From Limnochordales bacterium (lineage in GTDB: Bacteria > Bacillota > Limnochordia > Limnochordales > DUMU01): a stretch of DNA of 64,000 bases. How positions within the stretch are numbered: the stretch's first letter is position 1; the number at the start of each line of letters is the position of its first letter. Where the stretch lies: NCBI GenBank assembly GCA_014896315.1, contig JADBKP010000006.1, forward strand, positions 62,001-126,000, written 5' to 3'. The translations under genes and the position numbers were made by a program. The notes beneath the pieces were generated by a model, which had not been told where the DNA came from, did no database searches, and saw only the letters and a program-made list of their open reading frames with translations. Below, one piece after another: positions 47,471-61,628 of the stretch.

Positions 47471-48907
47471 ATGGTCACCCGGATGGAAGATGATATCCTC
47501 ATGACTCCCTCGAGGATCGTGGCAGAACTGGACCGGTACATCGTGGGGCAGGAGGAGGCTAAACGGGCGGTTGCCATCGCGCTGCGTAACCGAACGCGCC
47601 GCCAGAGGTTGCCCGAAGCGCTGCGGGAAGAGGTAATGCCCAAGAACATTCTGATGATCGGTCCCACCGGGGTTGGGAAGACGGAGATCGCCCGCCGCCT
47701 TGCCAAGCTGGCCAATGCCCCTTTTATCAAGGTGGAAGCCACCAAGTTCACCGAGGTGGGTTACGTAGGACGGGACGTTGACTCCATCATCCGTGACCTT
47801 GTCGAACGGGCCGTACAGGATGTCAGGCAGGAACGGATAGCACAGGTTACGGACCGTACCACCGAGGCGGTGGAGGAGCGTTTGCTTGAGGCGCTTGCTC
47901 CCCGACGCAGCCGCGAGCAACAGTTCCATCCCTTCAGAGCACTCTTCGGGCTAGGGACCCCGGGCTCTGAGGGCCGGGAGGAAAGAGAAGCGGGGTCGTC
48001 TTCCGATCTCTCCGAGGCTGCCGAAGAGCAACGCCGGGAAGAGCTGCGACGAGAGTTGCGGGCCGGGAAACTCGAAGACCGGATGATCGAGATTGAGGTC
48101 GCGGATAGCTCCTCCCTTCCTTTTCTGCAGTTCTTTGCTGGTGCGGGGCTGGAAGAGGTGGGGATGAACCTGCAGGACATGTTTGCAGGATTGCTGCCGC
48201 CCCGCCGGCGCCGTCGGCGGCTAACAGTAAGCCAGGCTCGCAAGCTTTTGACCCAGGAAGAGGCGGAGAAACTGATCAACGCCGAGGAAGTGGCGGCAGA
48301 AGCCATCCGACGGGTGGAGCAATCCGGGATAGTCTTCCTGGATGAGATTGACAAGATTGCCGGACGCGAGGCGACCCACGGCCCGGATGTCTCACGGGAG
48401 GGGGTACAGCGCGACCTGCTTCCCATTGTCGAGGGGACGACGGTCATGACCAAGTACGGGCCGGTACGGACCGACCACATACTCTTTATCGGTGCCGGCG
48501 CCTTCCACGTCTCCAAACCGTCGGATCTCATACCGGAGTTGCAGGGGCGCTTTCCTATCCGCGTGGAGTTGAAGGCGCTCGACCGGGATGATTTCCGGCG
48601 CATTCTTACCGAGCCGGAGAACTCGCTCATCCGCCAGTATCAAGCGCTGCTTGCTGTTGACGGGGTGGAGCTTGAGTTCACCGAGGATGGTATTGAGGCG
48701 ATCGCCGACGTAGCCTACCAGGCTAACCAGCAGATGGAGAACATCGGAGCCCGGCGTCTATACACGGTGATGGAGAAGCTGCTTGAGGCGCCCTCCTTCC
48801 TCGCCCCCGATCACCTCCGGGGCAAGCTGGTCGTGAACGCCGACTACGTCCGTTCACATGTGGGATCGTTGCTCTCCAACCGCGATCTGGCCCGCTATAT
48901 ACTCTGA
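47471..48907 (+). CDS. hslU: ATP-dependent protease ATPase subunit HslU (ClpY)
   Basis: A 478-residue AAA+ unfoldase. [18 protein letters not shown], Walker [16 protein letters not shown], the pore loop [12 protein letters not shown], Walker [10 protein letters not shown] and the C-terminal RYIL that docks HslV are present. The intermediate I-domain spans about 110-240 and is acidic and Arg/Glu-rich. The ATG at 47471 follows an AAGGGGG. In Bacillus codY comes next; here a gene-free leader with a c-di-GMP riboswitch follows. Confidence 0.97.
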
Positions 48908-49035
48908 TCTTTCCCGTCCCCAATTTTCCTGGGTACCTCTGCAAGGCCAAGAGGGATTTGCCGAATTATGTAGAATAAGGTCGGCGGCGGTATCACCGCC
49001 AGGGTAAAGAGATCGAGGAAAAACCGAATAGGGTC
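48908..49035 (+). other. Gene-free leader between hslU and the riboswitch
   Basis: No coding region is seen. CCTCT/AGAGG (about 48937-48955) is a weak hairpin after hslU. TAGAAT at 48971-48976 is a candidate -10 for the flagellar operon, but I find no good -35 at normal spacing. GGCGG/CCGCC (about 48986-49002) forms a small stem before the aptamer. No codY is present at this position. Confidence 0.4.
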
Positions 49036-49154
49036 GGCTCTTGTCAAGGGCAAATCTGTCGAAAGGCAGAGACGCAAAGCCACGGGCCTAAGGCCGGAGA
49101 TCTCTTCCATAGAAAAGGAGTCACGGCTATGGCAGCCGGGTTGCCAGAGTCGAC
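49033..49154 (+). promoter_or_regulatory. c-di-GMP-I (GEMM-I) riboswitch aptamer
   Basis: The conserved GEMM-I core is plain: GGGCAAA (49048-49054), a GAAA tetraloop hairpin (TCTGTC/GGCAGA around 49055-49070), GACGCAAAGCC (49071-49081), and CTATGGCAGCCGGGTTGCC (49127-49145) with the tetraloop-receptor helix. The closing helix P1 is nine pairs, GTCGGCTCT (49033-49041) with AGAGTCGAC (49146-49154), including one G-U. It senses the second messenger that governs the motile-to-sessile switch and stands in front of the complete flagellar operon. Confidence 0.96.
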
Positions 49155-49161
49155 GCTTTCG

Positions 49162-49196
49162 CACCCGGGCGACGGCGTCGGCTCGGGTGTTTTGTT
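49162..49196 (+). terminator. Riboswitch-controlled terminator before flgB
   Basis: CACCCG (49162-49167) pairs with CGGGTG (49184-49189), with CGAC/GTCG stacked inside, followed by TTTTGTT. An antiterminator is possible: GAGTCGACGC (49147-49156) pairs over ten bases with GCGTCGGCTC (49175-49184) and blocks this stem, but it also uses the 3' strand of P1. Ligand binding should therefore favour termination. Bases 49197-49323 to flgB show no further element. Confidence 0.8.
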
Positions 49197-49323
49197 CCCG
49201 CACACCCACCGGATACCCTATTCGTCGCGGTATCCCGGCCTGTCCGTCCCTTTACCGCTCGTGCCTGCCCTCCCCGACAGACGCCGACCTCCGATTCCAC
49301 TTATGGGAAGGGAGGTGCGGTAG

Positions 49324-49746
49324 GTGCCTAGCCTCTTCGAACTGGTTAACCGTGGTCTGGCCAATACCCTGGGCCATCTGTGGACGCGCCAGGCGCTTCT
49401 TGCCCATAACCTCGCCAATGCCGAAACCCCCAACTACAAACGCCTTGACCTTGCCTGGACCCCAGGCGATATCAGTGACTCTACCTTTGCTAGACGCCTG
49501 CAACTGGCCCGGACTCACCCCCGACATCTCTCGGCCGAACGCGATTCCGCGTCGGGGGGAACAAGGGGTGCTGGGACCCGTATTGTCCGAGACTCGACTA
49601 CCTCGGCGCGCAACGACGGCAACAATGTCGATCTTGAAAGGGAGCTGGTGCTGCTCACCGAGACCAGCCTGTGGTATCAAGCTGCCAATGCCCTTCTGGG
49701 GAAGCGGTACTCGGTACTGCGGAACGTGATCAGGGAAGGGAGGTGA
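49324..49746 (+). CDS. flgB: Flagellar basal body rod protein FlgB
   Basis: A 140-residue proximal rod protein. The N-terminal rod motif LLAHNLANAETPNYKR and a C-terminal amphipathic helix (LVLLTETSLWYQAANALLGKRYSVLR) pack together in the rod. GGGAGGTG precedes the GTG. It is the first gene of the long flagellar operon controlled by the c-di-GMP riboswitch. Confidence 0.95.
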   Translation: MPSLFELVNRGLANTLGHLWTRQALLAHNLANAETPNYKRLDLAWTPGDISDSTFARRLQLARTHPRHLSAERDSASGGTRGAGTRIVRDSTTSARNDGNNVDLERELVLLTETSLWYQAANALLGKRYSVLRNVIREGR

Positions 49747-49750
49747 CAAG

Positions 49751-50176
49751 ATGGGTCTTTTCGACGCGCTGGCCATCAGCGGTTCGGGCCTCACAGCCCA
49801 GCGGTTGCGCATGGATGTGATCGCTGACAACCTAGCCAACGCGCAGACGACGCGCAGCGAAAACGGCGGTCCTTACCAGCGACGCATCGTGGTCTTCCAG
49901 GAGAGAAACTTTGCTCACCTTCTTGCCAACCGGCTCACCCCTGGCGGAGGGGTGCGCGTGGCCGCCGTCACAACGGACTCGGCACCCCCGAGGCTGGTTT
50001 ACGATCCGGGTCATCCTGATGCCGGACCCGACGGATACGTGCGCTATCCAAATATCAACCCGGTCACTGAGATGGTGGACATGCTGGTTGCGAGCCGGGT
50101 TTATGAGGCGAACGTGGTAGCTATGGAGACCACGCGACAACTGGCCCTGCGCACCCTCGAACTGTTGCGCGGCTGA
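49751..50176 (+). CDS. flgC: Flagellar basal body rod protein FlgC
   Basis: A 141-residue rod protein. It starts LFDALAISGSGLTAQRLRMDVIADNLANAQTT and ends with the rod helix PVTEMVDMLVASRVYEANV. GGGAGGTGA precedes the ATG, four bases after flgB. Confidence 0.95.
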   Translation: MGLFDALAISGSGLTAQRLRMDVIADNLANAQTTRSENGGPYQRRIVVFQERNFAHLLANRLTPGGGVRVAAVTTDSAPPRLVYDPGHPDAGPDGYVRYPNINPVTEMVDMLVASRVYEANVVAMETTRQLALRTLELLRG

Positions 50177-50213: not shown

Positions 50214-50570
50214 GTGGCTACATCCGTGCTGACCGATGAGATTGTCCGCTCTTATCTGGGATATTCACCCAAACTCGCGCAGGTCGCCAACGAAAGGGGG
50301 GCCGCCGGGGCCGGGCTGGCCACCGGCTTGAACGAGGCAACCGGTCCCAGTTTTGGTGAACTGCTGAAAAACGCTATCGACCAGGTGGAAGCGCTCCAGC
50401 AGGCAGCGGATCAAGCTGCCTGGGCGGTAGCTACCGGAGACCCAGCAGGGCCCAACCTGGCACAGGTGGTTCAGCTTACTGAAGAAGCGGCGCTTGCGGT
50501 CTCGCTGGTGGTGGCGGTGCGCAATCGTGCGCTGGAAGCCTATCAAGAGATCATGCGCATGCAGGTTTAG
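50214..50570 (+). CDS. fliE: Flagellar hook-basal body protein FliE
   Basis: A 118-residue junction protein linking the MS ring and the rod. FGELLKNAIDQVEALQQAAD and a C-terminal LAVSLVVAVRNRALEAYQEIMRMQV match the family. The GTG at 50214 has GGAAGGCGGGG upstream. It stands between flgC and fliF, the standard order. Confidence 0.93.
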   Translation: MATSVLTDEIVRSYLGYSPKLAQVANERGAAGAGLATGLNEATGPSFGELLKNAIDQVEALQQAADQAAWAVATGDPAGPNLAQVVQLTEEAALAVSLVVAVRNRALEAYQEIMRMQV

Positions 50571-50632
50571 AATGCGGTGGTTGCCAGTGGTTCGGATGAG
50601 CCGGGGGAGAAAAGCTCGGGGAGGTAGAGCAG

Positions 50633-52351
50633 GTGGCCGAGAAGTGGCAGCACTTCCGTGAGCAGCTGCGGAGCTTTTGGGAGAAGCTGCCCCGGGCTGC
50701 TCGCATCGCCATCCCTTGCGTGTCGGCAGTTGTTTTCGCCGCACTTCTGGTGCTGCCGCGCCTTTTTGCTCCCCGGATGGTCCCGCTCTTTACCGGTATG
50801 TCTCCGGAAGAGGCGGCTCAGGTGGTGGACCTGTTGCAAGAGAAACAGGTCAGGTATGAGCTGGCTGCGGGCGGGACTGCTATTCTCGTTCCCGCAGACC
50901 AGGTCTATGAACTGCGCCTGGAGGTGGCGGGGGCGGGGCTTCCCGGCGACAGTGTGGTAGGGTTCGAACTTCTCAACCAGACGAACCTGGGCCTCACCGA
51001 CTTCGAACGACGGGCCCGCTACAACTGGGCGCTCCAGGGGGAGCTAACCCGCACGATCGAAAAGATGGAAGGAGTGGACGAAGCTCGCGTTCACCTGGTA
51101 ATCCCGGAATCTTCGGTTTTTGTACGGGAAGAAGAGCCGCCTTCGGCTTCGGTCTTCTTGAAGCTGAAGCCGGGATATTCGCTCAGCCCCGTACAGGTGC
51201 GGGCCATTATCACCCTGGTCTCTCGCAGTGTGCCTGGTCTCAAAGAGAAGGATGTGGCCGTGGTTGACCAGAACGGCAGGCTGCTCTCGGCCGGTCTGGA
51301 GAATCCATCCTCCCCGGCCTCCGGTTTATCCACCGCCGCCGCCAGCGAGCGGCTCGCCTTGACCCGGCAGTTTGAACGGGAGACAGAAGAACGGATCCGG
51401 TCCATGCTGGAACAGGTCTTCGGTCTGGGTCAGGCTGTGGTTCGGGTCAGCGCCGTCCTCGACTTCGATCTGCGGGAAGAACGGCAGGAGCAGTTCAGCC
51501 CGGCTCCCGGTAGCGACCGCGGCCTTCTCCGCAGCGAACAGGTGGAACTGGAGACGTCGACTTCATCTCTGGAGGCGGGCGCGGCCGGCGTACCCGGGAT
51601 CAGCAGCAACGTGCCGGGATATCTCACGGTAGACGCAGCGGCCAGCCCCCAGGCTTCCGGGGAGAAGAGCCTGACGATACGCAACTACGAGCTCAACCGG
51701 ATCGAATCGTACTACGTTCCCGCCCCTGGTCGTGTGAACCGCCTCTCCGTGGCGGTGATTCTCAACCGGCGCCTGGAACCGGCGGAGCAGGCTCAAGTGG
51801 AGGCGGCCGTCGCTTCTGCGGCCGGTATTGTGCGTGAGCGGGGAGATCAGTTGACGATCGCCACGGTACCGTTCAGTACCACTGCGAGCAGTCCGCAGAG
51901 CGGATCAGAAGAAGGCCGTCAACCCCTACCGACCGGCCTGGTTCTTGGCGCCCTGGCACTGGCCCTGCTCATAACCGCAGGCGCGCTCGGCTTGCTCTAC
52001 AGGGGCAAGCGGGCAAAGGAACTGCGTGCTCGGCCCAGTTTTGCCGAGACGTTAAACGGCATCGCAGCCGAAGGCTCAACAGGCGAAGAGGCGGTCGGAG
52101 TGGCGACGCCTGCAGCCGGTGGCAGAGGGGAGGGCGGGCCCGGTCCGGGCAGGACCGGGCAGGCTCTTGCGGGTATAGACCTGCTACCCGGAAGGGCGGA
52201 GGCCGCGAACGAAGAGGACAGGCTGCGCCAGCAACTTCAGGAACAGGTGGCTCGGCTGGCTCGCGAGGATCCGGAGGGCTTTCTCCGTACCTTGCGGGGC
52301 TGGCTTGTATCTGACGTAACCAGACGCGGGCGCCGTGTTGGAGGTAGATAG
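50633..52351 (+). CDS. fliF: Flagellar MS-ring protein FliF
   Basis: A 572-residue membrane ring protein. It has an N-terminal membrane span (about 23-45), the periplasmic-type ring-building domains (GMSPEEAAQVVDLLQEKQVRYELA; FERRARYNWALQGELTRTIE; VHLVIPESSVF), a second span at about 430-452 and a cytosolic C-tail ending in the FliG-binding helix (about 525-565). The segment between the spans near 330-350 carries the NYELN-type motif. GGGGAGGTAGAG precedes the GTG. Confidence 0.95.
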   Translation: MAEKWQHFREQLRSFWEKLPRAARIAIPCVSAVVFAALLVLPRLFAPRMVPLFTGMSPEEAAQVVDLLQEKQVRYELAAGGTAILVPADQVYELRLEVAGAGLPGDSVVGFELLNQTNLGLTDFERRARYNWALQGELTRTIEKMEGVDEARVHLVIPESSVFVREEEPPSASVFLKLKPGYSLSPVQVRAIITLVSRSVPGLKEKDVAVVDQNGRLLSAGLENPSSPASGLSTAAASERLALTRQFERETEERIRSMLEQVFGLGQAVVRVSAVLDFDLREERQEQFSPAPGSDRGLLRSEQVELETSTSSLEAGAAGVPGISSNVPGYLTVDAAASPQASGEKSLTIRNYELNRIESYYVPAPGRVNRLSVAVILNRRLEPAEQAQVEAAVASAAGIVRERGDQLTIATVPFSTTASSPQSGSEEGRQPLPTGLVLGALALALLITAGALGLLYRGKRAKELRARPSFAETLNGIAAEGSTGEEAVGVATPAAGGRGEGGPGPGRTGQALAGIDLLPGRAEAANEEDRLRQQLQEQVARLAREDPEGFLRTLRGWLVSDVTRRGRRVGGR

Positions 52352-52353
52352 GA

Positions 52354-53388
52354 GTGGCAGACAGCCGCACTTCCTACGCTCGAACCGCCCTTGGCAATAC
52401 GCCCCGCCGCAAAGCGGCCATCTTGCTCCTCAGCCTTGGTCCGGAGATCTCCCGCCAGGTGCTTCAGCGTCTGCCCGAAGAGGAGATGGAGCAGCTGGGG
52501 AGAGAGATTGCCGTCCTGGGAGAGGTGAGCCCTGAGGAGATCCTGCAGGTGCTGCAGGAGTTTCTCGAGCTTTACGAGATCCGCAGCCGCATCCTGGAGG
52601 GTGGCCTCTCCTCGGTACAGCGCCTTATCGAGCAGGCCTTTGGTCCGGAACGGGCAGCAGCTCTGCTGCAGCGGGTTACGGGAGCTGCCGGGAGCCGGCC
52701 CTTCGCCTTCATGTGGCAGGCCGATCCGGAGCAACTGGCAGGGTACTTCCAGCACGAGCACCCCCAGACGATCGCCCTCGTTCTCGCGTACCTGGTCCCG
52801 GACCAGGCTGCGGCGGTGTTGGCCGCGTTACCTGCCGAACTCCAGGCCGAAGTGGTGATGAGGCTGGCCAGTCTCGACCGGACCTCTCCTGAGGTGCTGG
52901 CGGAGGTAGAGGACGCACTCAGGCTTCGTTTCCGCGAGGTAGAGACTCCCGATTTCCAGGTCGCCGGAGGCGTTGAAGCTGCGGCTGCAATCCTCAACCG
53001 CGTCGATGGAAGTACGGAGAAGAGTATCATGGATGCTCTTGAACGGACCGATCCTGCCCTGGCCGAGGAGATTAAGCGTCGTCTCTTCGTCTTCGACGAC
53101 CTGGTGAACCTGGACGACCGGAGCATCCAGCGGGTCATCCGGGAGGTCGATCTGAAGGATCTGGCGCTGGCGTTGAAGGGAGCGTCCGAGACCGTCAAGG
53201 CTGCTATCTTCCGCAACATGTCCCAGCGTGCTGCAGCCATGGTCAAAGAAGAGATCGAGTACATGGGTCCTGTCCGGCTGCGCGATGTCGAAAACGCACA
53301 GGCCCAGGTCGTTGCCGTAGTCAGACGACTGGAAGAGGCTGGCGAGATCATCGTCAGCACTGGCAGAGGGGATGAGATAGTTGTCTGA
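52354..53388 (+). CDS. fliG: Flagellar motor switch protein FliG
   Basis: A 344-residue rotor protein. N-, middle and C-domains are present: KAAILLLSLGPEISRQVLQ, EHPQTIALVLAYL (middle domain EHPQ motif), and the C-terminal torque helix region with LVNLDDRSIQRVIREVDLKD and its charged residues. GGAGGTAG overlaps the fliF stop, so translation is coupled. It interacts with MotA, encoded downstream. Confidence 0.96.
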   Translation: MADSRTSYARTALGNTPRRKAAILLLSLGPEISRQVLQRLPEEEMEQLGREIAVLGEVSPEEILQVLQEFLELYEIRSRILEGGLSSVQRLIEQAFGPERAAALLQRVTGAAGSRPFAFMWQADPEQLAGYFQHEHPQTIALVLAYLVPDQAAAVLAALPAELQAEVVMRLASLDRTSPEVLAEVEDALRLRFREVETPDFQVAGGVEAAAAILNRVDGSTEKSIMDALERTDPALAEEIKRRLFVFDDLVNLDDRSIQRVIREVDLKDLALALKGASETVKAAIFRNMSQRAAAMVKEEIEYMGPVRLRDVENAQAQVVAVVRRLEEAGEIIVSTGRGDEIVV

Positions 53389-54259
53389 AGCCATGCCCGC
53401 TCCTGCCCGTGTTCTCAAGTCACCCGTTCTTGCTGTCGGTGGCATCACCCCGCCTCCGCCGTCCCCAGAGGGCCAGAGTCGCCCGGCGGCGTCGATTTCG
53501 GGAAGCAGCCATGCTCTGCTACGGGCAGCCTCCCTCCTGCATGCAGCCCAGCAAGAGGCGGAGGAGATCCGGGAGGACGCACGCCGGGAGAGAGAGGTTT
53601 TGCTGGCAGCCGCCCGGCAGGAGGCCGAGGCTATTCGCCGGCAGGCATACGAAGAAGGTTTCGCTGCCGGCCGCCGCGAGGGCGAAGAGGCGGCCCGGGC
53701 AGAACTGGAAGCGCTCTTCGCTCACGCCCACCGGGTTGTCCAGGCCGCGCTTGCCTTTCAAGAGCAGATAATCAGCGAGACCCGCCAGGAGCTGCTCCGC
53801 CTGGCCCTGGCCATCGCCGGAAAGATCATTGGCGAAAGGCTCGAGAAGCCCGGTGCCGTGGCGACACGTGCTTTGCGGGAGGCGCTCTTACGTTACCGTC
53901 CGTCCGGTCAGGTAATCACGGTCCGGGTCAACCTGCAGGACCTGGCGGCCGTTGAGGCCAGAAAAGAAGAGTTCATCCGCCTCTGCCAGGGAACGCGGGA
54001 ATGGAGAGTGGTCGCCGACGATCAGGTTGGTCCGGGTGGCTGCCTCATCGAGACTGAACAGGGCATTATTGACGGCCGGGTTGAATCCCGTTTCACGGCG
54101 ATCCAGAACGCTCTGCAGGAGCTGATACGCGAGGAGTCGGCCAGCGAGCAGCTCCAGATGGGAGCAACCGTGGAGGCCCGCACAACTGCACCCACTGCCG
54201 GTGTCGCTACCAACGCTTCTGGTGCTCTCGCTGAGGTCGCAAGGGGTGAGGCGGTGTGA
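53381..54259 (+). CDS. fliH: Flagellar assembly protein FliH
   Basis: A 292-residue regulator of the export ATPase. A Pro-rich N-terminal part, an Ala/Glu/Arg coiled coil (about 50-115) and the C-terminal FliH domain ([28 protein letters not shown], then [21 protein letters not shown]) match the family. The last 45 residues are Ala/Thr-rich. The TTG at 53381 overlaps the fliG stop by eight bases with GGGGATGAG before it; ATG 53393 is an alternative. Confidence 0.92.
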
Positions 54260-55638
54260 AGAAGGTGGCGCTATCCCAGCGGATGCAGACGGGACGTCCG
54301 AGCAACGACGTCAGCACCAGCCAGATCTTGCCATGGGCACGCCTGCTCGAAGCGGTTCACAAGGTTGAGGATTTCTCGCTGCAGGGTTCGGTCGTGCAGA
54401 TGGTAGGGCTGACCATCGAGTCCGAAGGCCCTAGCGTGACGCTGGGAGAGGTGTGCGCGATTCACAGGCTCGGGCGGCCCCCCGTTCTGGCTGAGGTTGT
54501 GGGCTTTCGCCAGCGCCGGGTCCTCATGATGCCGCTCGGCGAGCCGGATGGCATCGGTCCCGGAAGCCTGGTGACGGCCTATCGCCGCCCGCTCACCGTG
54601 CCGGTCGGACCTGCCCTGCTCGGCAGGGTACTCAACGGCCTGGGGGAGCCCATAGATGGGCGTGAACCCATCCGACCGGTGGCCCGCTACCCGCTGATGA
54701 GCACCCCGCCCGATCCCCTGCGGCGGCCACGTATCCAGGCGCCGCTGGCGGTGGGGGTGCGTGCCATCGACGGACTCCTCACCATCGGGCGCGGCCAGCG
54801 GATCGGTATCTTTGCCGGCAGCGGGGTCGGCAAGTCCACGCTTCTTGGCATGATGGCCCGGCAGACGGAGGCCGACGTCTGCTGCATCGCTCTCATTGGC
54901 GAACGGGGACGCGAGGTGCGCGAGTTCCTGGAAAAGGACCTCGGACCCGAAGGGCTTGCCCGGTCGGTGGTGGTGGTGGCCACCTCCGATCAGCCCGCCC
55001 TGGTGCGTTTGAAAGGTGCATTCGTAGCCACCGCCATTGCGGAGTATTTCCGCGACCGGGGGGCGCACGTGTTGCTGATGATGGACTCGGTCACCAGGTT
55101 TGCCATGGCGCAGCGGGAGATCGGTCTTGCTGCCGGTGAACCTCCTGCCACCCGCGGCTATCCCCCGTCGGTTTTCGCACTGCTCCCGCGACTTCTTGAG
55201 CGGGCCGGGATGTCAGCTTCCGGTTCAATAACGGGCATCTATACGGTACTGGTTGACGGTGACGACTTCAACGAACCGATCGCCGATGCAGCCCGCAGCA
55301 TTCTGGATGGGCATATTGTTCTCTCCCGCACTCTTGCCCAGCGAGGTCACTATCCCGCGATCGACGTTTTGAGCAGCGTGTCGCGGGTGATGGGAGATAT
55401 CGTGGACGGAGCGCAGCTTCAGGCAGCAGCCCGTTTCAAGCGGTGGCTCGCCACCTACCAGGAGGTTCAGGATCTGATCGAAATCGGAGCGTATGCGGCC
55501 GGCAGCAATCCGGAAGTCGATGAAGCCATCGCCCGCCGGCCCGAGCTGCTGCGTTTCTTGCGGCAGGATGTCAACGAGTTGTCCGATTGGAGCTCGACGC
55601 GCGCCTGGCTGATCGAACTGGCAGGGGAACAGAAATGA
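54256..55638 (+). CDS. fliI: Flagellum-specific ATP synthase FliI
   Basis: A 460-residue export ATPase of the F1-beta type. The Walker A is [13 protein letters not shown] (about 192-204), Walker [13 protein letters not shown]-like ([21 protein letters not shown]), and [15 protein letters not shown] is the export ATPase signature. It powers export of rod, hook and filament proteins with FliH and FliJ. The GTG overlaps the fliH stop, and the ATG of fliJ overlaps its own stop. Confidence 0.96.
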
Positions 55639-56108
55639 GGAAGTTCGCATTCAGGCTGGAGCGAGTGCTGCAACTCCGAAAACACGAGGAGGAGCGGGAG
55701 AAGCAACGCCTGGCGGTACTTCTGGCGGAACTGCAAACGGCGCGGCGCCGTCAGGCGGCCTGCGAAAGGGAGCTCGCCGAGCTGGAAGCCCGTTTTGGTC
55801 GGGCCCTTGCTCGCTCTTCTGGCGACGGCGAACTTGCCGTATACGAGCTGCAGCTCTACCGGGGACGCCAGGAGTTGCTGCGGCAGAATCTTACCCGTGC
55901 CATCGCAAAGGTAGCAGAGATGCAACAGCGGGTTGATCAGCAACGCGCCCTTCTTCTGGCTGCAGCGCGCCGGCGAGAAGTACTGGTAAGGCTGAGGAAG
56001 CGGAAGTGGGAAGAGTTCCAGAGAGAGGTCTTGCGGGAAGAGCAGAAGCTTCTCGATGAGGTGGCCAGTGTATGGCATTACCGGCAGACAGGGTTGCAGG
56101 ACGCGTGA
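55635..56108 (+). CDS. fliJ: Flagellar export chaperone FliJ
   Basis: A 157-residue coiled-coil protein, of usual size. It opens [21 protein letters not shown] and remains an antiparallel helix pair rich in Arg, Gln and Glu. FliJ acts as the central stalk of the FliI ring. The ATG at 55635 overlaps the fliI stop (ATGA); the frame is open slightly upstream in fliI. Confidence 0.9.
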
Positions 56109-56794
56109 ACGAGCCGAGAATACCACGGGGGCAGCCGGGCAGAAAGGCTACCATGGCCAACGTCCCTCAAGGTCGCCGGTGGCGGCGCAGCCGGTTCCTT
56201 GTATCCGGGGTGCTGCTGATGTTGATTTCGCTATTGCTGGGAGCGGTCACCGGCGGTGTCTATCTCCTCGGTTGGGATCCCCTGGAATGGGCGGGCTCGT
56301 TGCCCGGCATCGGCCCGGTCGTCAGCACCTACCGTATGGGACTACAGATCCAGGCAGAGTTGGCCGAAGCCAAAAAGGGGATAGCTGCCGAGATGACCCG
56401 GCTGGAGCAGATCCGCCAGGAGCTGGCGAAGGAGCAGGAACGCCTGCAGGGCGAGGCGTTCTCCCTCGAGCGGGAGCGGGCCGAGCTGGCCCAGGAAAGA
56501 GCTGAGCTGGCCCGAGAGAGGGCGGAACTCGTAAAGTTGCAGGATGAGCTGGAGCTGCAGCGCAGGATCGCCAGAATCTACCAGTACATGCGGCCGGCAG
56601 AGATTGCGGAGATCCTGGCGGTTCGACCCGTGGAAGAAGCCGCACAAGTGCTCCTGGCCCTGCCGGAGGAGACGGCCGGAGCGGTCCTGGCCGCCCTGAA
56701 TCCTCTGCGGGCAGCAATGGTGCTAGAGGTCATGCGGTCTTCGGCCGCGAAAGCAGATGTGAGCGAGGTCGGAGACGAAGCAGACGCTTTTTGA
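56105..56794 (+). CDS. MotE/YlxF-like flagellar membrane coiled-coil protein
   Basis: A 229-residue protein with one N-terminal membrane span (about 30-55: FLVSGVLLMLISLLLGAV), an extracytoplasmic coiled coil with ERAELAQERAELARERAEL heptads (about 95-160) and a C-terminal MgtE-N/MotE-like helical domain (MRPAEIAEILAVRPVEEAAQVLLAL). B. subtilis ylxF lies at the same place between fliJ and fliK. MotE proteins stabilise motor stator or basal body components. The GTG at 56105 overlaps the fliJ stop; an ATG at 56153 with GAAAGGC is also possible. Confidence 0.82.
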   Translation: MNEPRIPRGQPGRKATMANVPQGRRWRRSRFLVSGVLLMLISLLLGAVTGGVYLLGWDPLEWAGSLPGIGPVVSTYRMGLQIQAELAEAKKGIAAEMTRLEQIRQELAKEQERLQGEAFSLERERAELAQERAELARERAELVKLQDELELQRRIARIYQYMRPAEIAEILAVRPVEEAAQVLLALPEETAGAVLAALNPLRAAMVLEVMRSSAAKADVSEVGDEADAF

Positions 56795-56834
56795 GCCGGG
56801 GCGGCAGCAAGTGAAGGAAAGGAGGTGAGAGAGG

Positions 56835-59114
56835 ATGCAGATCATCTCGCTCCCTACCACGCCGGAGATGGCCGGTACGCAAAGGGCTATAGAAACGGAC
56901 GCGGCCACCCGGAATACCAGTGCTGCCCTGGGGGTCAGCTGGGCGGCGATCCTGGCCCTTTTGGCGGGAGGCGCTGAAGCTGCGTCTCGCGCAGGGGGCC
57001 CGCCCCGGACGGGGACGAACCATGCCCAGGAGAAGGCGGCACTCAAGCAGGCGACGCCGGCAACCACGAGCAACCCTGCCCCGGCCGCAAGCCTCGAGGA
57101 ACCTGTAAAGGACGAGAGATCGACGACGGAGAGAAGAGAAACGGGCGAGGCGCAGGGGTCGGTGGATGCGGTAGTGCAAGACCCGGGAGGAGGCCATTTT
57201 CCGGCCGGATTCATGCCTGTGCTTCTACTCCCATCTGGCCGGCAGCTTGCCGAACGTTGCAGTTCTGCTTCTGCGACCGGGATGCGGGCGACAGCCCCGC
57301 CAGCCGCCCGGCCGGTAGCCGCCGCTCCTTCACAAGCAGCTAATCCGGCAGGGTCGCCAGAGGCATCAACCAGAGCCTTGCCCTTCCCGCAGCAACTGTC
57401 TACCTCACCGCCACCGGTGCCGGTCACGGCGGCAATGTCGAGCGTGCGGCCGGCAGGCTTGCTGGCAAAGCCGCCGGGCAGCAGTGCTGTGGGCGGAGCA
57501 TCAACCGATAGCCCTGCGAACTCCGTGCCTCCGTCGCCGCCGTCGCCGCCGTCGCTGCCGTTGCGGGAGTCGTCGCCGTCGGCTTTCTCGTCGTCACCGC
57601 CTTCATCGCCGCAGTTGCCACCCCCGGCACCGTCGTTGCGCCCGGCCGTCTCAGGACCAGCCGCAGGACCGAGCTACCGGGAAACCCCGTTAGAGGTCCT
57701 ATCGCGGCTTCCGGCGGTCCCGGGACCGGTGCGGCTGATGTCGGTTGAAAGCGGCGGGGAGGCAGTCCGGTCGCAGCTCCTGTTGGGCCGAGAGATGCTT
57801 CCTGCCGGTCTGCTTCGGGTCGATGCGGGCGGCAAAGACCAGAGCCTGTCCCCTGAATCCTATCGGGCCGCAGCTCCTTCGGCCGGCAGCCGGATAGCTG
57901 CCACCGAGAGCACCGCTCCGCTCCTTCAGATCGTTGAAGCTACTGCGGTGCCTGTCGAAGCAGGAAGAAGCGAAGAGCCAGCGGCGGAGAAGGGCCTGGC
58001 AGGATGGGTCAGGCCTGAGCCCGTGGAGGAGGAAAGCCCGGCGGTAAGGGTACTGGCCAGACCAGCGCCCGCAGAGGAACAAGCAGCGGACCGGCCAGCC
58101 ACCTCCCTTCCCAGCGAGCACCAGTCAGGGGCGGTGGCGCAGGACCCTGGTCGGCCTCTGCCGCCGGATGACACAGACCGCGGGAAGCTGGCCGAAAGAT
58201 GGATACCTGACTATCGAGTGGAGCGCGCGACGGGAAAGGTCGCGTTCTCCCCGACTTCCGACCAGAGTGTCGAACCGAGCAGCCTTCCCTTGCACTTGAC
58301 GCAGACCGACGGGGAAAGAGCCGGCAACTCCTCGCGGCAGGAGTACCGGGAGTACACGGCAGGGAGTCGCCAGTTTCAGGGCGAGCTGGACGCAAAGGCC
58401 GCGGAGGGAGTTCGGCGCGCAAGCGACCTTCCGGCCGGTCCGACCAGCCCAGATCGGCAGGAGCTCAATCCCCGAGAGCAGGTACTGAGCCGAGAGCTTT
58501 GGGAGAGTGGCGCCGTCACCGGAACGCGGGGAGACCCCTCAGATCCGTCCCCGAACCGGCCCGTGGCTTTAGCCGGTGCGAGCTTCTCCCACCGCCTGCT
58601 CGATGAGGTGGAAAGGTTGCAGCAACTGCGGGAGGAAAGGCAGCTGAGCAGTCCGGTTCACCGGATCAGCATGCTGCTTGAGCCACCCGAACTGGGGATG
58701 GTCGAGGCTACCGTTGATCTGCGGCACGGGGAGGTTCGGATCCGCATGACGGCCCACACCGCCGCGGGTGAGGCGGTACTCTCCGGGCAGCTCGACTCGC
58801 TGAGAGCGGCCATTACGGAACGGGGACTCGCCGTGGGTGAACTGCGGGTTGTCCCTGCCGGTTCGACCGGCGGAGCTCCATGGCTCGAGCAAGCAGCGAG
58901 CGGGTTCTTCGCCGGCCAGGGGTTCCAGGGCGACCTGCGCCGAGGATGGTACAGGCCCGGTGAGGACGAGTTGCCTCCGGTGCGAGCTGCTGCAAGCAGA
59001 CGGCGGTCGACCGGCCGCAGCGTGATGGAGACGACCGATGGCGCAGATACTGCCCTGCCCCCGTCGGGGCGACCTTGGGGAATCGCTGCCGGAGGGTTGG
59101 ACGTAACGGCCTAG
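56835..59114 (+). CDS. fliK: Flagellar hook-length control protein FliK
   Basis: A 759-residue protein, longer than most FliK. The first 600 residues are low in complexity, rich in Pro, Ala, Ser and Gly, with a PPSPPSPPSLP run at about 233-243, as expected for a molecular ruler. The C-terminal hook-length control domain (about 605-680: LLEPPELGMVEATVDLRHGE, then LRAAITERGLAVGELRV) switches export from hook to filament. AAAGGAGGTGA precedes the ATG. Confidence 0.9.
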   Translation: MQIISLPTTPEMAGTQRAIETDAATRNTSAALGVSWAAILALLAGGAEAASRAGGPPRTGTNHAQEKAALKQATPATTSNPAPAASLEEPVKDERSTTERRETGEAQGSVDAVVQDPGGGHFPAGFMPVLLLPSGRQLAERCSSASATGMRATAPPAARPVAAAPSQAANPAGSPEASTRALPFPQQLSTSPPPVPVTAAMSSVRPAGLLAKPPGSSAVGGASTDSPANSVPPSPPSPPSLPLRESSPSAFSSSPPSSPQLPPPAPSLRPAVSGPAAGPSYRETPLEVLSRLPAVPGPVRLMSVESGGEAVRSQLLLGREMLPAGLLRVDAGGKDQSLSPESYRAAAPSAGSRIAATESTAPLLQIVEATAVPVEAGRSEEPAAEKGLAGWVRPEPVEEESPAVRVLARPAPAEEQAADRPATSLPSEHQSGAVAQDPGRPLPPDDTDRGKLAERWIPDYRVERATGKVAFSPTSDQSVEPSSLPLHLTQTDGERAGNSSRQEYREYTAGSRQFQGELDAKAAEGVRRASDLPAGPTSPDRQELNPREQVLSRELWESGAVTGTRGDPSDPSPNRPVALAGASFSHRLLDEVERLQQLREERQLSSPVHRISMLLEPPELGMVEATVDLRHGEVRIRMTAHTAAGEAVLSGQLDSLRAAITERGLAVGELRVVPAGSTGGAPWLEQAASGFFAGQGFQGDLRRGWYRPGEDELPPVRAAASRRRSTGRSVMETTDGADTALPPSGRPWGIAAGGLDVTA
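57531..57557 (+). repeat. Short tandem 9-bp repeat in fliK
   Basis: Three direct copies of CCGTCGCCG (the third with one change) encode part of the Pro/Ser ruler segment. A multiple-of-three unit would change ruler length by slippage without breaking the frame. Confidence 0.7.
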
Positions 59115-59133
59115 ACGAAAAGGGGGTGACTAC

Positions 59134-59730
59134 ATGCCAGGATGGGGAAGTGTTACGGGTGTAGGCGGAACAAGTCTTCTGGGCTCGCTCGGTCTGGGGC
59201 CCGGTCTGCTGGAACGGCTCTTGCAGGCGGGCGTCACCGGCCCGGCGGGCGGCCACCCGGGAGCTGTTCGTCCGGCGACGGTGGCCACCCGTGCTTCCGC
59301 CATGACCCAGAAAGCTGCCAAAAGTCAGGAGACGGACGCCGGGAGTTCCGCAGGAGGCGGACAGCCGGACCGGGCCATGCTGGCCAAGGATGACTTTCTG
59401 CGGCTGCTCCTCACGGAGCTGCGCATGCAGGATCCGATAAACCCGGTAAGCGACCGGGAATTTCTGGCCCAGCTGGCTCAGTTCTCAACTCTGGAGCAGA
59501 TGACAAATCTGGCGTCAGCCGTTGAGAAGCTGGCCGCAGCGGAAGAGCGATTCGGCCAACAGCAGCAGGCTCTGGCGCTGCTCGGGCGTCAGGTGGAGGT
59601 GGGCGCTGGTGACGAAACCATCCGGGGACGGGTGGACGCAGTTGTCTGGAATGTGAACGGTGCTCCGCTTCTCAGGATTGGCGAGAAGGAGTACCCGCTG
59701 GACTCCGTCCGGCGAGTGCTACCGGAGTGA
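59134..59730 (+). CDS. flgD: Flagellar hook assembly (capping) protein FlgD
   Basis: A 198-residue scaffold for hook polymerisation. The conserved block DDFLRLLLTELRMQDPINPV, followed by EFLAQLAQFSTLEQM, is at about residues 88-130. It is preceded by about 85 Gly/Ala-rich residues, longer than usual, and followed by a short C-terminal domain (GRVDAVVWNVNGAPLLRIGEKEYPLDSV). GGGGGTGA precedes the ATG. Confidence 0.94.
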   Translation: MPGWGSVTGVGGTSLLGSLGLGPGLLERLLQAGVTGPAGGHPGAVRPATVATRASAMTQKAAKSQETDAGSSAGGGQPDRAMLAKDDFLRLLLTELRMQDPINPVSDREFLAQLAQFSTLEQMTNLASAVEKLAAAEERFGQQQQALALLGRQVEVGAGDETIRGRVDAVVWNVNGAPLLRIGEKEYPLDSVRRVLPE

Positions 59731-59763
59731 AAGCGAGACTGCAGGCAACGGAGAGGACGGGCT

Positions 59764-60222
59764 ATGGAGACGCTGAGGAATTCACTGCCGGTTGCCGCGG
59801 GCTCGGCCAGCGCAAGCAGGCCCCTTCAAGGTGAAGGAGTTGCTCCGGCGGCGACGGGTAATACGGCCGGGGAAGTTCCGAGTTTTCAGCAACTGCTCGA
59901 GCAGGAGCTGGCCCTGCGAGCTGTTGCCGAAACGGCGAAAGAGAACACCAGGGCGCCCTCAGGAGCAAGGCTGAGGCTCTCTGCCCACGCCGAGCAACGC
60001 CTGCGTTCCGGAGGCGTTAGGTGGGGTCCCAGCGAAGAGGCCCGGCTTGCCGCAGCCATTGACAAGGTGGCCAGCAAAGGCGGCAAGCAGGCGCTGGTGC
60101 TCATGGGGGATCTGGCGTTGATTGTCAGCATCACCAATAGGACGGTTATCACCGCGATTCCGGGTGAAAGGCGGCAGGAGAATGTCTTCACCCAGATTGA
60201 TTCGGCGGTGATCACTTCCTGA
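59764..60222 (+). CDS. Conserved flagellar-operon protein (TIGR02530 type)
   Basis: A 152-residue protein. The second half (about 70-152) matches the small flagellar-operon family found between flgD and flgE in Bacillota: LSAHAEQRLRSGGV, EARLAAAIDKVASKGGKQALVLMGDLALIVSI-like and NRTVITAIPGERRQENVFT. Function is not established. The first half is Ala/Ser/Gly-rich. The gap that follows (60223-60404) holds no gene or clear signal beyond the flgE ribosome binding site. Confidence 0.85.
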   Translation: METLRNSLPVAAGSASASRPLQGEGVAPAATGNTAGEVPSFQQLLEQELALRAVAETAKENTRAPSGARLRLSAHAEQRLRSGGVRWGPSEEARLAAAIDKVASKGGKQALVLMGDLALIVSITNRTVITAIPGERRQENVFTQIDSAVITS

Positions 60223-60404
60223 CCGTAGCAGACGGGAAGCAGGCTGCGGGGGATTGGCCGGACCGGTTATCGCCCAGGTCTCCTCCGGCGACCGGGGGTC
60301 AGGACGTTGGATCGAAGGAAGACGTCCCAAGCGGCCGCTTCCCCTGAAACCAGGGATCGAAAGGTCTAGACCGAACACGTGAGCCTGGCAAAGGAGGAAG
60401 AACG

Positions 60405-61628
60405 ATGTTGAGGTCGTTGTACTCCGGAATCTCGGGGCTGAAGAGCCACCAGGTAGACCTGGACGTGATTGCCCAGAACATAGCCAATGTCAATACCCCC
60501 GGGTACAAGGCCGGAAGGGTGCTATTTGCCGATCTACTCTATCAGACGTTGAAAGATGCGCAAGCGCCGAGCGCAAGCCGGGGCGGCACCAATCCGGTGC
60601 AGGCAGGGATGGGTGTAGGCGTGGCGGCGATCGACATGTTGATGGGGCAGGGGATCCTCCAGCCCACCGGTATCGCTTCGGATCTGGCAATAGATGGCGA
60701 AGGTTTCTTTGCGGTGCAGGATTCGGCCGGCGCCACTCTGCTTACCCGCGCCGGTGCGTTCCGGCTCGATACCGACGGCTATCTCGTCCATGCTCCGTCC
60801 GGTTCGCGACTTCTGGGTTGGAACGCGCAGAATGGCCAGGTCAACACCAACAGTACGCCGGAAGTTCTCAAGCTCGACCTGGGACTCTTCCCGCCCCGGG
60901 CCACCACCACCGTCCATTTCGCAGGGAATCTGGACGCGCGTACGGCATCGGGCAGTCCAGGTACAATCCGGCCAAACGTGCTGGTATACGACTCGCTGGG
61001 CAACTCACGAGAGCTGGCCCTCCAGTTCAGACGAGGTTCGGGTAATAGTTGGACCGTTGACGTGCTGCTCGACGGAACGCAGGTTTCCCAGGTTACGCTG
61101 TCTTTTGACAGCAACGGCAATGTCACCACAGGCGACGCGCAACAGTCGGTGACTGTCGACCTGGACGGCGACGGGACAGCCGGCGAGACCATCACGCTGG
61201 ACTTCACCGGCATAACCCAGTACGCACTGCCGGACGATGTGTATGCCGCTCGACAGGATGGCACCGCCGGCGGCGAACTGGAAGAGATCACGGTGGATGC
61301 CAGCGGACAGATAATCGGGCGCTTCAGCAACAACGAGATGCAGCTCTTGGGGCAAATTGCCCTGGCAACGGTAACCAACCCGGCCGGGCTGGCCAAGGAG
61401 GGCAGCTCCCTCTTGCGGACCACCGCCAACTCGGGGGCGATACGCTGGGGCACTGCGGCGAGCGGCAGCCGTGGGAAGATCGAGTCCGGGAGGCTTGAGA
61501 TGTCCAACGTCGATCTGGCGGAGGAGTTCGCCAATATGATCGTAGCCCAGCGGGGATTTCAGGCTAACACCCGCGTAATCACGGCAACCGACGAGATTCT
61601 GCAGGAAGTAATCAACCTGCGACGTTAG
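60405..61628 (+). CDS. flgE: Flagellar hook protein FlgE
   Basis: A 407-residue hook subunit. The N-terminal rod motif SLYSGISGLKSHQVDLDVIAQNIANVNTPGYK and the C-terminal EEFANMIVAQRGFQANTRVITATDEILQEVINL form the hook core; the middle carries the D1/D2 surface domains with DSLGNSRELALQF and DLDGDGTAGETI. AAAGGAGG precedes the ATG by 7 bases. A hydrophilic sequence without signal peptide fits export by the flagellar apparatus. Confidence 0.96.
   Translation: MLRSLYSGISGLKSHQVDLDVIAQNIANVNTPGYKAGRVLFADLLYQTLKDAQAPSASRGGTNPVQAGMGVGVAAIDMLMGQGILQPTGIASDLAIDGEGFFAVQDSAGATLLTRAGAFRLDTDGYLVHAPSGSRLLGWNAQNGQVNTNSTPEVLKLDLGLFPPRATTTVHFAGNLDARTASGSPGTIRPNVLVYDSLGNSRELALQFRRGSGNSWTVDVLLDGTQVSQVTLSFDSNGNVTTGDAQQSVTVDLDGDGTAGETITLDFTGITQYALPDDVYAARQDGTAGGELEEITVDASGQIIGRFSNNEMQLLGQIALATVTNPAGLAKEGSSLLRTTANSGAIRWGTAASGSRGKIESGRLEMSNVDLAEEFANMIVAQRGFQANTRVITATDEILQEVINLRR

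Follow-up and report, generated by a model that had tools for sequence, protein, structure and literature searches.

A predicted c-di-GMP-I OFF riboswitch with a copied P1 strand in the leader of the flgB flagellar operon of a Limnochordales bacterium

Introduction

The closest described system is the Cd1/Cdi1_3 riboswitch located before flgB in Clostridioides difficile, where a terminated leader of about 160 nt is produced and c-di-GMP increases termination and decreases flgB expression and motility (PMC3649979, PMC6366702). In Cd1, C87 is the partner of the ligand, the antiterminator takes this pocket base together with G86, and NMR gave no sign of a P1 helix (PMC9262584). The pilM c-GAMP riboswitch of Geobacter metallireducens, which has the GEMM-I fold, is nearly identical in aptamer fold to the RNA described here and also controls termination, but its ligand is cGAMP and its logic is ON.

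The window analyzed in this work is a stretch of 64,000 nt from a Limnochordales bacterium (Bacillota; GenBank assembly GCA_014896315.1, contig JADBKP010000006.1, positions 62,001 to 126,000). An initial annotation of this window had proposed a c-di-GMP OFF switch before a flagellar operon, in which two copies of an octamer compete for one strand. We consider it very likely (probability about 0.88) that the element belongs to the c-di-GMP-I class and controls the flgB flagellar operon as a transcriptional OFF riboswitch. As such it adds a new, well-built case to a type of switch previously described before C. difficile flgB.

Results

The aptamer was identified by cmscan as a match to the full RF01051 model (c-di-GMP-I, GEMM-I; model positions 1-87) at 49039-49148 on the + strand, scoring 84.2 bits (E = 3.8e-15) against a curated gathering cutoff of 35 bits. 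According to the RF01051 alignment, P2 is capped by a GAAA (GNRA-type) tetraloop and the conserved core GGCAAA / GACGCAAAG / GCCGGG-UGCC is present; the P3 stem exceeds the Rfam consensus in length. The pocket bases were placed by alignment to the RF01051 model and by Vc2 numbering, giving G49049 as the equivalent of G20, A49076 as that of A47, and C49144 as the ligand-pairing C. The score and the pocket bases support the c-di-GMP riboswitch identity first proposed.

The aptamer is followed after 175 nt, in the same direction, by flgB (49324-49746, + strand; TIGR01396, 75.8 bits against a cutoff of 59), whose product is 58% identical to the FlgB of locus L032. Next comes flgC (49751-50176, + strand; Flg_bb_rod and Flg_bbr_C), relatives of which also come after the riboswitch in related genomes, and the remaining operon in the window (50214-61628, + strand) consists of fliE, fliF, fliG, fliH, fliI, fliJ, an unnamed coiled-coil gene, a fliK-like gene named by position only, flgD, a TIGR02530 gene and flgE. 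Because flgB through flgE are co-oriented downstream, the riboswitch lies in the leader of a long flagellar operon. The upstream genes are topA, a xer-type recombinase gene, hslV and hslU. The minus strand between hslU and the riboswitch carries a terminator-like hairpin and T-run at 48982-49001, with no obvious minus-strand gene to which it would belong. A sigma-70 scan of 48850-49400 returned no promoter, and a sigma-28-like candidate (TAAA-N14-ACCGAATA, 49005-49030) was rejected, as 18% of shuffles match equally well and it is absent at the same place in the nearest relatives. Judged from the sequence, no promoter at the locus is convincing.

Three helices can form around one shared strand. 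The octamer GTCGGCTC occurs at 49033-49040 and again at 49177-49184, and in folding both copies are able to pair with GAGTCGAC at 49147-49154, in agreement with the initial annotation. The first copy lies in the 5' strand of P1 (P strand, 49033-49041, +), which forms nine pairs, one of them G-U, with 49146-49154. The 3' strand of P1 (A strand, 49146-49156, +), delimited from folds and shuffles, is common to the antiterminator, in which 49147-49156 forms ten pairs, one of them U-G, with 49175-49184. Folding adds to the antiterminator one more inward pair and a UCGC/GCGA inner stem, as well as an outward extension in which GCC 49143-49145 pairs with GGU 49186-49188 across an A-G mismatch, so that these pocket bases enter the antiterminator pairing. 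The intrinsic terminator was located where previously placed, as a hairpin with a 13-pair stem of about -20 kcal/mol within 49161-49190 (+), followed by the U-tract UUUUGUU (49190-49196, +), whose first U can also close the hairpin. It was found by direct folding and is not listed by a generic terminator scan. The second octamer had been assigned to the terminator loop; this assignment was incorrect, as seven of its eight bases are paired on the 3' side of the terminator stem, within the H strand (49174-49188, +) that is the antiterminator partner of the A strand. In constrained folds, the terminator folds freely beside a forced P1 and cannot fold when the antiterminator is forced, so that P1 and terminator are mutually compatible and both are exclusive with the antiterminator. 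The proposed competition is thus physically sound in the folds, and it is kept in relatives.

Two further elements were noted downstream. ACACCC at 49201-49206, just past the U-tract, can pair with GGGUGU at 49185-49190 in the read-through form, and a comparable GGGUG-UUUUU-CACCC is present in G001, a genome of the same genus. An inverted repeat, GGATACC ... GGTATCC, lies at 49210-49236 between the terminator and flgB; it has no U-tract and by eye is not kept in G001.

The repeated octamer was rejected as stand-alone proof and is weak evidence by itself, since an exact 8-mer repeat of some kind appears in 20% of cases when the 171-nt leader is dinucleotide-shuffled; the window contains four copies of GTCGGCTC on its + strand. 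The pairing itself gave a different result: an 11-pair run joining the A strand to sequence downstream arose in 0.6% of shuffles, and none of 1000 shuffles gave a duplex energy as strong as that between the A strand and the terminator hairpin. Chance does not account for this pairing of the P1 3' strand. For distant relatives, the per-sequence shuffle tests of A strand against terminator were mostly not significant and for this reason are not used as proof.

Folding energies were followed along the growing transcript. The P1 state is favored up to transcript end 49178 (-61.2 against -59.7 kcal/mol for the antiterminator), the antiterminator ensemble is ahead of P1 by 7.8 kcal/mol at transcript end 49184, and once the end reaches 49190 or beyond, P1 plus terminator and the antiterminator are nearly level (-75.3 against -74.7 kcal/mol). 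The same order was obtained for G001 (-5.6, then +3.5) and, more weakly, for G002, a genome of the same family (-2.3, then +3.4). In all three sequences, the antiterminator thus has a brief lead just before the terminator arm is complete, after which the terminator matches or beats it. Nanomolar ligand binding at micromolar levels contributes, by our own estimate, roughly 4 kcal/mol. As the antiterminator lead at 49184 (about 8 kcal/mol) exceeds this contribution, switching must be kinetic and not purely thermodynamic, and the modeled energy order in the three genomes is that expected of a kinetic OFF switch.

In the two nearest relatives, G001 (locus L113) and G002 (locus L116), the RNA also precedes flgB. 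Across these two genomes and the present one, 92% of cells are paired in P1 (four two-sided changes), 97% in the terminator (two two-sided changes) and 87% in the antiterminator (two two-sided changes), against at most 54% in slid-partner controls. The antiterminator covariation comes from three sequences and is reached by 122 of 500 column shuffles, and it is therefore taken as supportive and suggestive only. In G001, U178 is replaced by C, and A-to-G changes compensate for it at 153 in the A strand (antiterminator) and at 172 in the 5' arm of the terminator, one in each of the two exclusive helices. The A-strand pairing in G002 requires two bulges.

More widely, RF01051 was found in 49 of the 61 genomes of the relatives search, this one included, and flgB lies just downstream of it in at least 17 related genomes besides the window, a lower bound that covers the retrieved loci only. 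A c-di-GMP-I type RNA is located upstream in 6 of 40 scanned flgB loci. The riboswitches of related Bacillota (L113, L116, L119, L122, L155, L172 and others) resemble the present one in matching RF01051 and in being followed directly by flgB and flgC, and most related flgB leaders have a plausible terminator after the aptamer. Among these leaders, however, a copy of the P strand in the terminator 3' arm is common to L113 and L116 only, and the A strand of several more distant leaders apparently pairs with the terminator 5' arm and not with the 3' arm as here. In a Syntrophomonadaceae genome, tandem c-di-GMP-I aptamers stand before flgB (L053:2291-2374 and 2599-2682). The flgB leaders of L032, L056 and L070 match the variant model RF03167 (c-di-GMP-I-GGC) better than any other in Rfam, RF01051 included; L032 and L113 are apparently one locus, and L113 also passes RF01051 with 81.6 bits.

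Discussion

Considering these results, we propose the following model. As the aptamer leaves RNA polymerase, the P strand would pair with the A strand. With c-di-GMP bound, P1 would be held until the terminator and U-tract fold, so that transcription would end near 49195. In the ligand-free RNA, the copy of the P sequence in the terminator 3' arm (49175-49184) would take the A strand first, which would also unpick the pocket bases GCC 49143-49145, block the terminator and allow the flagellar operon to be read. The antiterminator would thus have only a short time to form, until the terminator arm is complete, and P1 would have to hold through this time when ligand is present. The computed aptamer, pocket bases and helices, with the conservation and energy order of the helices, support the OFF-switch reading well, and from them we infer that c-di-GMP binds, which way the RNA responds and what this does to flagella. 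The predicted logic, in which high c-di-GMP turns flagella off, had been likened to the C. difficile flgB riboswitch, and the comparison is apt, as Cd1/Cdi1_3 is a demonstrated OFF switch acting via termination (PMC6366702, PMC3649979, PMC9262584).

The two systems share the RNA family, the target operon and a downstream intrinsic terminator, which ligand favors in Cd1. The Cd1 antiterminator takes strand A and the pocket C, and the same is predicted here. In contrast to Cd1, the present RNA has a strong predicted P1 of nine pairs, whose 5' strand is copied in the antiterminator strand; because P1 was not detected in Cd1, the strand exchange here differs in detail. The spacing is also different, with the flgB start about 130 nt past the terminator here and the Cd1 promoter 496 bp from the start codon.

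Several other readings were weighed. The RNA might be intact but uncoupled from its signal, with c-di-GMP scarce and the operon in effect always on, since the only GGDEF gene found seems broken. Domain matches in the genome comprise one GGDEF, four HD-GYP and one PilZ, and no EAL domain was found. The GGDEF gene encodes an HD-GYP plus GGDEF protein (L211:1185-2879; G000:C16 about 116684-118378), and its frame runs into a TAA while still within the GGDEF domain, of which profile positions 2-123 of 161 are covered, the remainder being readable in another frame. However, the frameshift lies near the gene end, after the YGGDEF motif, and perhaps represents an assembly error; in a draft of 20 contigs and 96.8% completeness, a base may be wrong or a gene missing. 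Intact GGDEF genes are present in G001 and G002, the HD-GYP and PilZ domains remain in this genome, and the riboswitch pairing has not decayed. We therefore regard an uncoupled or degenerate switch as unlikely.

A second c-di-GMP-I riboswitch was observed in the same genome (L112:601-733; G000:C14:110635-110767), before a gene for a 205-aa secreted-looking protein. Its P1 3' strand (AGGGTG) lies 8 nt ahead of the GTG start of this gene and probably serves as its ribosome-binding site as well, and this arrangement suggests a translational OFF switch; similar arrangements were seen by eye in L114, L115, L120 and L121.

Less probable than the uncoupled switch is a constitutive attenuator with little switching at the flgB locus, in which the aptamer binds c-di-GMP but the hairpins terminate in both states and the extended antiterminator is itself a terminator. 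The extended antiterminator is a strong GC-rich stem (-31.2 kcal/mol, against -25.9 for the core) that ends at 49188, one base short of the U-tract from 49190. Yet the strong core of 10-11 pairs does not go past 49184, five bases short of the base of the terminator stem, the three outermost pairs lie beyond a mismatch and include a G-U, and the G002 antiterminator, aligned by eye, seemingly cannot extend in this way. The Cd1 antiterminator also takes pocket bases and nevertheless reads through (PMC9262584). An ON switch, in which ligand would favor expression, or translational control at the flgB start is a very improbable reading of this locus: other c-di-GMP-I riboswitches are indeed ON or work without termination control (PMC6366702), but here aptamer P1 and terminator exclude the antiterminator together, and the distance from terminator to flgB start argues against translational control. 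That the ligand is 3',3'-cGAMP is hardly credible, for although cGAMP riboswitches share the fold and were originally annotated as c-di-GMP-I (PMC9262584), position 20 is G where the cGAMP-selective change is A (PMC6274999), A47 is A, both bases being described ligand contacts (PMC9049102), and cGAMP specificity was rejected on the G, the pocket bases indicating c-di-GMP as the predicted ligand; the pilM riboswitch differs from this RNA in the same respect, and here the terminator is compatible with the aptamer.

Returning to the c-di-GMP OFF switch, we suggest only tentatively, as a rather doubtful proposal, that it represents a P1-copy variant of the flgB switch, in which one A strand is contested by two like strands, unlike Cd1, and which is confined to this bacterial family and kept in a strain whose only recognized c-di-GMP synthase gene may be broken. 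Its three strands would form a compact platform that is easy to test. The OFF-switch reading would extend RNA-switch control of a whole flagellar operon by c-di-GMP from C. difficile to a deep-branching, largely uncultured lineage of Bacillota. The same riboswitch class stands before flgB in at least 18 genomes of this lineage, this one included, which suggests an old and general way to stop flagella production.
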